The notes below the pieces were generated by a model, which was not told the origin of the DNA, searched no databases, and worked only from the letters and a program-made list of their open reading frames with translations. From positions 1 to 42,039 of the forward strand of contig DVFQ01000121.1 in the NCBI GenBank assembly GCA_018713185.1: a stretch of DNA of 42,039 nucleotides. Reading direction: 5' to 3'. How positions within the stretch are numbered: the stretch's first letter is position 1; the number at the start of each line of letters is the position of its first letter. The position numbers were made by a program, and so were the translations under genes. This stretch comes from Candidatus Copromonas avistercoris (nom. illeg.) (lineage in GTDB: Bacteria > Bacillota > Clostridia > Lachnospirales > Lachnospiraceae). This document shows positions 12,451-16,645 of this stretch, one piece after another.

Positions 12451-13635
12451 TTGTTGGAGATTAAGATAAATGAGGCGGAGAATTCCGCGAGAATTCTTGT
12501 AATCGGCGTAGGCGGCGCCGGAAATAACGCGGTGAACCGCATGGTAGAAGAGAATATTATGGGTGTCGAATTTATCGGCATTAATACGGACAAGCAGGCG
12601 CTTCAGTTCTGTAAGGCTCCGACGGCGATGCAGATCGGCGAGAAGCTGACCAAGGGACTCGGCGCTGGCGCGAAGCCGGAGATCGGCGAAAAGGCGGCGG
12701 AAGAGAGCCAGGAGGAGATCGCCCAGGCAATGAAGGGCGCGGACATGGTGTTCGTAACCTGCGGTATGGGCGGCGGAACCGGAACAGGAGCCGCGCCGGT
12801 GATCGCGAGGATTGCCAAGGATATGGGAATTTTAACGGTGGGCGTTGTGACGAAGCCCTTCCGTTTCGAGGCGAAGCAGCGGATGAACAATGCCCTGGAG
12901 GGAATTGAGAATCTGAAAAACTCCGTCGATACCCTGATTGTGATCCCCAACGACCGTCTTCTTGAGATCGTTGACAGAAGAACGACGATGCCGGACGCTT
13001 TAAAGAAAGCGGACGAGGTTCTTCAGCAGGCAGTGCAGGGAATTACGGATCTGATCAATGTTCCTGGCCTGATCAACCTGGATTTCGCGGATGTCCAGAC
13101 CGTTATGACGGATAAGGGCATCGCTCATATCGGAATCGGAAAGGCCAAGGGCGACGAGAAGGCCCTGGAGGCTGTAAAGCAGGCGGTATCCAGCCCGCTT
13201 CTGGAAACGACCATCGAGGGCGCTTCCCATGTAATTATCAATATCTCGGGCGATATCAGCCTGATCGAGGCCAACGAGGCCGCCAGCTATGTACAGGAGC
13301 TGGCTGGCGACGACGCTAATATTATCTTCGGCGCGATGTACGATGAAAACGCGGAGGATGAGGCGACGATTACGGTAATCGCTACCGGCCTGGACGCTCA
13401 CGGAGCCAATACTCCGGTGGAGCGGGCAATGAAGGATTTTACAAATTATAAGCCCAAGATGCCGGCTTCTCTCCAGAAACCGGCGGCAGCTCCGGCTCCG
13501 GCGGCTTCCAAATCGCCGAAAGAAGCCGCGGCTACGGCTCCTCAGTTAAATATTCCCGCCGGAACCCCTGTTTACCGTCCAGCGCAGAAAGAAACCCAGA
13601 TCAATATTCCGGATTTCTTGAAGAACCGCAGATAG
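12451..13635 (+). CDS. ftsZ: Cell division protein FtsZ (TTG start)
   Basis: [28 protein letters not shown], conserved C-terminal peptide [20 protein letters not shown]. Confidence 0.98.
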
Positions 13636-13670: not shown

Positions 13671-13703
13671 AGGGGGCGGATTTCGTCCGTCCCCTATCTT
13701 TTT
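13671..13703 (+). terminator. Rho-independent terminator of ftsZ
   Basis: AGGGGGCGGA-TTTCG-TCCGTCCCCT followed by ATCTTTTT. Confidence 0.85.
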
Positions 13704-13975
13704 CGACACGCTTCTTTCCATCGAAGGAGAGCGGCGTGCGGATCTTATGCTTCTTTTATTTTCATATTTTTTCACATTTTTATTTTTTCACTTTTTAAAT
13801 TTCTATCGTTTTCATTTGCAATGTCTTTCTATCACGGCGGATCTTGTTTGAGGTCTTCGTCTGTTCTTCGTTTGCGAAGGATCTTATCACCGGTTTCCGG
13901 TTCTGTCAGCTTCTCTTGTTTTTTCAAAGAAAATGGAAAAAAGGGCGATAAATAACGGGTGTTCTCTCCTTGGTT

Positions 13976-14008
13976 TTGACAAAATCCGAAGGGCTGTCTG
14001 GCTATAAT
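13976..14008 (+). promoter_or_regulatory. spoIIG-type promoter with 21-bp spacer
   Basis: TTGACA (13976-13981), 21 nt, TATAAT (14003-14008), upstream of spoIIGA. Confidence 0.7.
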
Positions 14009-14053
14009 TATGGCTGGATCGCTGGAAAGGTACAGGCAAAGGAGATGGGCTCC

Positions 14054-14839
14054 TTGGATTATGTTTGGTATGCGGATGTTTTTTTCCTGACGGAGCTTCT
14101 TAGGAATTACTTTCTTCTTTTCCTGACGGCAGTTTTTGAGAGAAGAAATCCGTTCCGGTTCCGACTGATCCTGGCGGCTGCGGCAGGAAGCTTTGGCAGT
14201 ATTCTTTTTTGGCTGCTTCCGGTTCTTCGGCAGCCGGTCTGTATTCCGGTGGCTGCGGCTGCTTTGGGGAGTCTTATGGTTTTTCTGGCGTTTCCCATCA
14301 ACGGTAAAAGGGTCGCGGTCCGGCTTTTGGGCTTCCTTTTTGCGTCGGCCGCCGTTATGAGCGGCGGACTTTCCTTTTTTCGGCAGTTTTTTTATTTGAC
14401 GGAGCTGGAAAGCTTGCTTTGCATGGGAGCGGTCATGGCTGGTCTGGCGGCCTTTTTTTGGGCGGCAGCCCAGAGCCGGAGACTGGGGACGCTTCGGTAT
14501 CCGGTGCGTCTTTATTACCGGGGCAAAGAAAAGGAATTTATGGCTCTTGCGGATTCCGGAAACCGACTGCGGGAGCCGGTGACCGGAAAGCCGGTCAGCG
14601 TCATTTCCTATGAGGACTGCCAGGGGTTCTGCGATACGCTTTCGGCTGTATTTTGTATCCCATACCGCTCCGTGGGAAAGGAACAGGGGATGCTGACGGG
14701 GATCGTCTTTGAACGGATGGAGATTTTCCGGGATTCCGGGGTGCTTACGGTTGAAAAGCCGGTGGTGGCCGTCGCCAGGGAGCCGCTTTCGGCCGACGGG
14801 AGCTTTACCATGCTGCTGCCGGAGGAATTGGTCATATGA
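14054..14839 (+). CDS. spoIIGA: Sporulation sigma-E factor-processing peptidase SpoIIGA (TTG start proposed)
   Basis: Hydrophobic N-terminal TM domain, ADSGN aspartic-protease motif, adjacent sigE; AAAGGAG 9 nt before TTG at 14054. Confidence 0.88.
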
Positions 14840-14852
14840 GGAGGAGAGGTTT

Positions 14853-15593
14853 ATGATTATCAAGATTTCGATCCCAAACCGGATCAAGCTGAAAAAGGTC
14901 GCCAGCCTGCGGGCGGTATTCTGGCCGAAGGAAGGCGAGATCCATTATATTGGAGGGGCCGACGTGCTTCCGGCGCCGCTTTCGGCCGCGGAGGAGACGG
15001 AGACGCTGGCCCGCTTTGGAACAGAAGGGGAGAAGGAGGCCAAGTCCCGCCTGATCGAGCATAATCTGCGCCTTGTGGTGTACATAGCAAAAAAATTCGA
15101 CAATACCAGCGTGGGCGTCGAAGATTTGATCTCCATCGGGACCATCGGCTTGATCAAGGCGATCAATACGTTTAATCCCGCGAAAAATATCAAGCTGGCG
15201 ACGTACGCGTCCAGGTGCATTGAAAACGAGATTTTAATGTATCTGCGCAGAACCAGCAAAACCCGGCTGGAGGTTTCCATCGACGAGCCTTTAAACGTGG
15301 ACTGGGACGGGAACGAACTGCTGCTTTCCGACATCCTGGGAACCGAGGAGGATGTGATTTCCAAGAACATGGAGGCGGAGATCGAACGGGATCTTTTGAA
15401 AAACGCCATCGAGCATTTAAGTCCCAGGGAAAAGCGGATCGTCGAACTGCGTTTCGGCCTAAAGGACGCGGAGGGAGCGGAGATGACCCAGAAGGAGGTG
15501 GCGGATCTGATGGGGATTTCCCAATCCTATATTTCCAGATTGGAAAAAAAGATCATGAAACGGCTGAAAAAGGAGATCGTACGTTTCGAGTAA
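14853..15593 (+). CDS. sigE: RNA polymerase sporulation sigma factor SigE (pro-sigmaE)
   Basis: Pro-sequence with [52 protein letters not shown]. Confidence 0.97.
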
Positions 15594-15748
15594 GACGTTC
15601 TTACCAAAAATTCATTGACAGTTTCCCCAGTTTTGTACTTCCATTTCAAAAAGAAATAAGGTAGAATGGAGCATGACGAGACGAAGAACAGATAGAGAAA
15701 TCGGGAATTTTCTGCGGCGGAGGCCACAGAAGAGAAAGGGGAAACTTT

Positions 15749-16645
15749 ATGAAAATTGCGGTGGTGACGGACAGCAACAGCGGGATCACTCAGAAGCAGG
15801 GAGAAGAGATGGGGATTTCGGTTGTCCCTATGCCGTTTATGATCGATGGCGAAACATATTTTGAAGATATTACGCTGACGCAGGAGGAATTTTATCACAG
15901 GCTGGAGCGGAATGCGGACATTTCCACTTCCCAGCCGTCGCCGGAGACGGTGACGAAGCTTTGGGACCGTCTGCTTTCCGATCATGACCAAGTGGTCCAT
16001 ATTCCCATGTCCAGTGGCCTTTCCAGCTCCTGTGAAATGGCGATGGCGATGGCGGCCCAGGAGCCTTATGAGGGCCGGGTTTTCGTGGTAGATAATCAGC
16101 GGATTTCCGTAACCCAGTACCAGTCGGTGCGGGACGCGCTGATGCTGATTGGTCAGGGAGCGGACGGGGCGCAGATCAAAAAGCGGCTGGAAGAGACGGC
16201 GAAGGATTCCGTTATTTTTATTACAGTGGATACGCTGAAATATCTGAAAAAGGGAGGGCGGATCACGCCGGCGGCCGCGGCCTTGGGCACGCTTTTAAAG
16301 ATCAAGCCGGTTTTGATCATCCTGGGTGAGAAGCTGGACGCTTACGCGAAAGCGAGAACGGTAAAGCAGGCCAAATCCGTGATGCTGACGGCGATCCAAA
16401 AGGAGTTGGAAACCAGGCTCCATGACGGGGAATGCCGCAGGTGCCATCTGGCGATCGCCCATACCAACAATGAAGAGGCGGCCCTGGAATTTAAGAAGGA
16501 AGTGGAGGAACGGTATCCTTACGCGGATGTGATCATGGCTCCGCTGTCCTTAAGCATCGCCTGCCACATTGGCCCTGGAAGCCTTGCGGTAACGGCGACG
16601 AGAAAGATGGATGAGGAATATGAAGAAGATCACGGAGCGGTTTAG
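15749..16645 (+). CDS. DegV family fatty-acid-binding protein
   Basis: AVVTDSNSGI, SSGLSSSCEMA, LKKGGRI, IGPGSLAVT motifs. Confidence 0.93.
   Translation: MKIAVVTDSNSGITQKQGEEMGISVVPMPFMIDGETYFEDITLTQEEFYHRLERNADISTSQPSPETVTKLWDRLLSDHDQVVHIPMSSGLSSSCEMAMAMAAQEPYEGRVFVVDNQRISVTQYQSVRDALMLIGQGADGAQIKKRLEETAKDSVIFITVDTLKYLKKGGRITPAAAALGTLLKIKPVLIILGEKLDAYAKARTVKQAKSVMLTAIQKELETRLHDGECRRCHLAIAHTNNEEAALEFKKEVEERYPYADVIMAPLSLSIACHIGPGSLAVTATRKMDEEYEEDHGAV

Follow-up and report, generated by a model that had tools for sequence, protein, structure and literature searches.

A nearly invariant 21-bp spacing at the putative Spo0A-activated spoIIG promoter of a Lachnospiraceae bacterium and its relatives

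Introduction

The spoIIGA-sigE operon of Candidatus Copromonas avistercoris (an uncultured bacterium of the Lachnospiraceae; assembly GCA_018713185.1, here G000) raises a simple question: what kind of promoter carries perfect TTGACA and TATAAT hexamers exactly 21 bp apart, and is this layout peculiar to one genome or shared by its relatives? We addressed it in a stretch of 42,039 nucleotides of contig DVFQ01000121.1 (hereafter the window), starting from an initial annotation that had proposed a spoIIG-type promoter at this site and a TTG downstream of it as the true start of spoIIGA.

The locus and its genes

The order of the genes is ftsZ (12451-13635), a terminator-like hairpin, spoIIGA (to 14839), sigE and degV (Table 1). 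The hairpin at 13671-13695 would separate spoIIG from ftsZ transcription. SpoIIGA scores 173 bits against PF03419 (gathering score 28.4) and carries both the DSGN motif and the conserved N-terminal Y-x-D; its score against the NCBIfam equivalog TIGR02854 is 106, under the cut-off of 210, and we therefore regard it as a divergent member. The assembly also encodes Spo0A (Spo0A_C 155.5 bits, 296-aa frame). The spoIIG assignment proposed at the outset is borne out by the identity of the two genes, by this Spo0A and by the conservation of the 21-bp layout at orthologous promoters described below.

Two further observations concern the gene content. A second Spo0A C-terminal DNA-binding domain (L142, G000:C30:14262-14558) lies in a 121-aa frame that has no in-frame receiver domain. 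It is degV, not sigG, that follows sigE (window 15594-15750), a second sigma gene is absent from the flank in 48 of 76 related loci, and sigG has no match above cut-off in the 84% complete assembly.

Table 1. Features of the spoIIG region, in window coordinates.
Feature	Position	Strand	Basis
Terminator-like hairpin after ftsZ	13671..13695	+	Pattern match only
Degenerate 0A-like box GGGCGAT with A-rich tail after it, at -33 from the start of the -35	13943..13949	+	Register of the conserved box
-35-like hexamer in TTTGACA, overlapping a reverse 0A half-site (complement TGTCAAA)	13975..13981 (hexamer 13976-13981)	+	Sequence and GACA conservation
21-bp spacer, conserved AAAT at its start, middle unconserved	13982..14002	+	Logo of relatives
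-10 element TATAAT, without extended -10	14003..14008	+	Per-base conservation 86-100%
Expected transcription start, approximately 7 nt past the -10 (inferred)	14015	+	Sigma-A promoter geometry
Shine-Dalgarno AAAGGAG, 9 nt before TTG	14038..14044	+	Sequence; start alignment
spoIIGA, pro-sigma-E processing protease, 261 aa, TTG start	14054..14839	+	PF03419, E 8e-51
sigE, sporulation sigma factor, second gene of the operon	14853..15593	+	NF006158 equivalog, 383 bits, above cut-off

A conserved 21-bp spacing

The perfect hexamers and their spacing are present as the initial annotation had described them, upstream of spoIIGA-sigE, and only 0.02 perfect TTGACA/TATAAT pairs with a spacing of 15-23 bp would be expected in the window. 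Scanning the whole assembly with TTGACA-N14..26-TATAAT returned 37 perfect pairs, with spacers of 17 bp (n = 24), 18 bp (n = 10), 16 bp (n = 2) and 21 bp (n = 1). The only one outside 16-18 bp is the spoIIG site of the window; with the other 36 all inside this range, the site is exceptional within its own genome.

Our comparison covered approximately 170 relatives, divided into a phylum-wide set and a Lachnospirales set (SpoIIGA upstream regions of 30 relatives and 80 contigs located via SigE). Among related loci with any -35/-10 pair matching at least 10/12, 21 bp was the best spacer in approximately 92 of 99. At a threshold of at least 11/12, the 21-bp pair was found at 83 loci, versus 0.2 expected from dinucleotide shuffles, and each other spacer at three loci or fewer. 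One relative in culture, [Clostridium] aerotolerans DSM 5434 (L035), carries TTGACA-21-TATAAT. The 90 further loci sampled phylum-wide come from many families: 65 have 21 bp, several of them as GTGACA-21-TATAAT, 6 have 22 bp and 17 have no clear pair, and a 21-bp spacer scores best in approximately 65 of 79. The 22-bp minority consists of L133, L159, L144, L150, L153 and L172; the first two belong to one family (f109), which suggests lineage-specific shifts in spacing.

Across the approximately 170 relatives compared, the 21-bp spacing of the predicted spoIIG promoters is nearly invariant, probably because Spo0A occupies one half of the promoter. This near-invariance shows that the long spacer of this key sporulation promoter is no Bacillus oddity, and the conservation extends over Clostridia, most of which are genetically intractable. 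We did not find this near-invariance described in the literature searched, in which older papers are thinly covered, and we make no claim of priority. Taken together with homology to C. difficile and B. subtilis, from which the transcription start, the use of sigma-A, Spo0A binding and the mechanism are inferred, we consider it very probable that the window site is the spoIIG promoter, of the sigma-A type, poor on its own and activated by Spo0A~P. The weak 0A boxes of the window and the 17 of 90 phylum loci with no clear pair count against this reading.

The -35 hexamer and the 0A boxes

What, then, is the -35 hexamer? Because the loci behind the logos had been chosen for their promoter match, the conservation of the hexamers is overstated; GACA was not required in the Lachnospirales set and was partly required in the phylum set. 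In 90 non-redundant Lachnospirales loci, GACA is conserved at approximately 97-100% and TATAAT at 86-100% per base, the hexamer is preceded by T in 85% and followed by AAAT. The frequencies at hexamer positions 1-6 are 0.74, 0.78, 0.99, 1.0, 1.0 and 0.98 in Lachnospirales and 0.38, 0.83, 0.97, 1.0, 1.0 and 1.0 in 65 phylum loci. Ordinary promoters from the same DNA, defined as TATAAT sites with a hexamer at 17 bp matching at least 4/6 (n = 112), have the reverse profile, with 0.90 at T1 and T2 and 0.68-0.78 from G3 to A6. This inversion argues that the spoIIG "-35" is constrained at least partly, and perhaps mainly, as a reverse Spo0A half-site.

The initial annotation had read a near-0A box into the -35, and this claim stands in part. 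The window reads TTTTGACAAAA, whose complement TGTCAAA is indeed one base off the 0A box TGTCGAA; taken alone, the match is insignificant, since the window holds 13 one-mismatch 0A boxes versus 11.7 expected. We therefore rejected single 0A-box matches as stand-alone evidence, and the match at the -35 gains weight only because relatives conserve it: TTTGACA agrees with TTCGACA at 6/7, and at least 5/7 are found at the same register in 84 of 90 relatives.

Further upstream, the Lachnospiraceae logo has TGTCGAA at -43 and, 10 bp on, TGTCGATAAA at -33 (registers counted from the first base of the -35 as 0). Spo0A contacts bases G2, C4 and G5 of the 0A box (PMC3485338), and this triple peaks at -33 (34/90 loci) and -43 (21/90), with 6 loci or fewer elsewhere. 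At -33 the window has GGGCGAT followed by AAAT, in which G2, C4 and G5 are kept and the flanks are lost, and the congener G001 carries the identical box (GGGCGATAAAT). The -43 box is eroded to ATGGAAA, and the half-site at the -35 retains G2 and C4 but not the contacted G5. On its sequence, the case for placing the window promoter in the spoIIG promoter family is strong; given these degenerate boxes, strong binding of Spo0A at this copy is not claimable.

A variant of Spo0A activation, and not exclusive of it, is that Spo0A alone sits on GACA, with sigma region 4 placed downstream; the 21 bp would then be the distance from an activator site to the -10 and not a promoter spacer. Such an arrangement fits the freedom of T1 (38% phylum-wide) beside the 97-100% of GACA, which is opposite to ordinary 17-bp promoters. 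It also fits the deep Clostridia and phylum loci, where a second CA lies exactly 10 bp upstream (C-6 84%, A-5 75%), the pattern expected of two tandem reverse 0A half-sites. Nonetheless, T1 and T2 are still at 74-78% in Lachnospirales, and the contacted G5 would be restored by a C, in whose place there is usually the T2 that suits sigma; together these make a dual role of the hexamer equally likely. For B. subtilis spoIIG, a repositioning of the polymerase has been proposed. We regard Spo0A alone on GACA as a distinct possibility, somewhat short of probable.

The translation start of spoIIGA

The longest open reading frame begins at TTG 13970, 6 bp upstream of the -35, and the earlier objection that the called start precedes the promoter is therefore justified: the longest-ORF call sets the start upstream of the gene's own promoter, and we correct it to TTG 14054. 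AAAGGAG is followed by 9 nt and this TTG, exactly as had been noted, and the codon matches the position of the start in most relatives. The best start precedes the conserved Asp of Y-x-D by 7 codons in 75 of 101 loci, and TTG 14054 is that codon. TTG is the best start codon in 22 of the 101, and in the closest relatives, G001 and G020, the equivalent of 14054 is a TTG with no ATG.

Translation from ATG 14045 instead would make use of a stronger start codon, in frame and 9 nt upstream. However, this ATG directly abuts AAAGGAG (which ends at 14044) with zero spacing, G001 and G020 offer TTG alone, and the preference of 75/101 loci for a start 7 codons before Asp points to the downstream codon; we consider the ATG an unlikely start. 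A hairpin that might sequester the ribosome-binding site, AAGGAGATGGGCTCCTT (14039-14055), was also considered and rejected, as its folding is no better than that of shuffles (z 0.40) and it is lost in G001 and G020.

Proposed mechanism

Neither an extended -10 nor a hidden -35 at 17 bp is conserved among the 90 relatives, and both were rejected: TG precedes the -10 in 3/90 only, and the 17-bp position is mostly occupied by CAAAAT or CAAATT, with 63/90 matching TTGACA at 1/6. With both lacking, an activator is probably needed. That this is an ordinary sigma-A promoter, with an incidental TTGACA, an unimportant -35 and constitutive low expression from TATAAT alone or with a poor 17-bp -35, is very improbable in spite of the perfect TATAAT, as GACA at exactly 21 bp varies no more than TATAAT does, the 17-bp hexamer matches at approximately 1/6, TG before the -10 is confined to those 3/90, and the pair recurs at 83 loci versus 0.2 from shuffles.

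For the Spo0A-activated promoter, we propose the following sequence of events. The sigma-A-type promoter would be weak alone, because its elements are 21 bp apart and neither an extended -10 nor a usable -35 at 17 bp is there to help. When sporulation sets in, Spo0A~P would bind the upstream 0A-like boxes and also the -35, a composite in which GACA would double as a reverse 0A half-site. Through contact with region 4 of sigma-A, Spo0A~P would then bring RNA polymerase to use TATAAT. Transcription from near 14015 would give an mRNA leader of approximately 40 nt, in which AAAGGAG would drive translation of SpoIIGA from TTG 14054, with sigE next. By analogy with the known systems, the spoIIG promoter is the presumptive switch for the mother-cell sporulation operon spoIIGA-sigE.

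Other candidate targets

The same layout is found at spoIIE, where 18 loci were scored: the best spacer is 21 bp in 14 and 22 bp in 3. In the window's own genome (G000:C18) it reads TCGACA-21-TATACT, as it does in G001, and in G020 CTGACA-21-TATAAT. As a side observation, the SpoIIE frame is only approximately 460-500 aa long in many Lachnospiraceae (G000:C18:5089-6441, L222, L226, L228, L231); these short frames do not include the N-terminal part of the profile, before position ~310, which is the membrane part.

Genome-wide, exact TTGACA-N21-TATAAT has 29 matches in 21 genomes, many of them at the spoIIG or spoIIE promoter; the seven in G009 seem to include chance ones. The relaxed pattern NYGACA-N21-TATAMT has 5 matches in the window's own genome, versus 6 for a reversed-pattern control. 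They include spoIIE, spoIIG and G000:C153:7172; C46 and C153:28413 were rejected as targets: neither a gene start nor a 0A box is obvious at either, and they stand at the chance level of the 6 control matches.

The site at G000:C153:7172-7204 consists of TTGACA-21-TATACT with a perfect TGTCGAA exactly at -33. The gene that begins at G000:C153:7276 (L300/L302) adjoins yyaC (TIGR02841), and its product, with no match in Pfam or NCBIfam, is probably an uncharacterised membrane protein. The promoter layout is kept in G001 and G020 (three related genomes in all), and the gene co-occurs with spoIIGA across 61 genomes (Fisher p 3e-6, uncorrected for kinship). We propose it as a candidate third Spo0A/sigma-A target. 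In more distant relatives (L305, L310, L312, L314, L315, L319, L320, L323, L324), this gene has YGACA-N5-(T/C)GATAAAAT together with a TGnTAnnAT-like element. The distance from YGACA to the -10 is 31 bp in 11 of 30 loci, versus none at 27-30 bp, and 31 bp is 21 bp plus one helical turn.

Food for a broader hypothesis is that GACA-21-TATAAT might be a dedicated Spo0A code across Clostridia and not a stretched sigma-A promoter. The "-35" would be a reverse 0A half-site whose distance to the -10 is fixed, marking those sigma-A genes by which the cell is committed to stage II (spoIIG, spoIIE) and predicting further targets, such as the gene next to yyaC. We hold this tentatively, as slightly less likely than not. 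GACA-21-TATAAT offers a short, searchable signature for the Spo0A targets of committed sporulation in uncultured genomes; among the perfect matches in the genomes sampled, many lay at spoIIG or spoIIE.

Comparison with known systems

The B. subtilis spoIIG promoter has a spacer of approximately 22 bp. The window promoter resembles it in serving the same operon, in its long spacer and in having a 0A box at the -35, with putative ones upstream; it differs in its 21 bp and in the more degenerate upstream boxes. Spo0A acts on both spoIIG and spoIIE of B. subtilis, and both depend on sigma-A (PMC12090719).

In C. difficile, the spoIIGA promoter depends on sigma-A, with GTGACA and TATAAT mapped by RNA-seq, and sigE is down 240-fold in a spo0A mutant (PMC3789822). 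Gene and GACA/TATAAT elements are the same as in the window, and sigE is Spo0A-dependent in C. difficile; the window differs in having TTGACA and in the lack of sigG after sigE. The Spo0A DNA-binding domain binds DNA upstream of C. difficile spoIIGA and spoIIE weakly (PMC3485338), and the C. difficile spoIIE promoter has a putative Spo0A site adjoining the -35 (PMC13395437). Most of the Clostridia spoIIE promoters scored here, a Spo0A-activated class, share the 21-bp spacer of the window promoter, although they precede a different gene and, in the window's own genome, have TCGACA and TATACT. With these precedents in C. difficile and B. subtilis, the window promoter would belong to a known kind.
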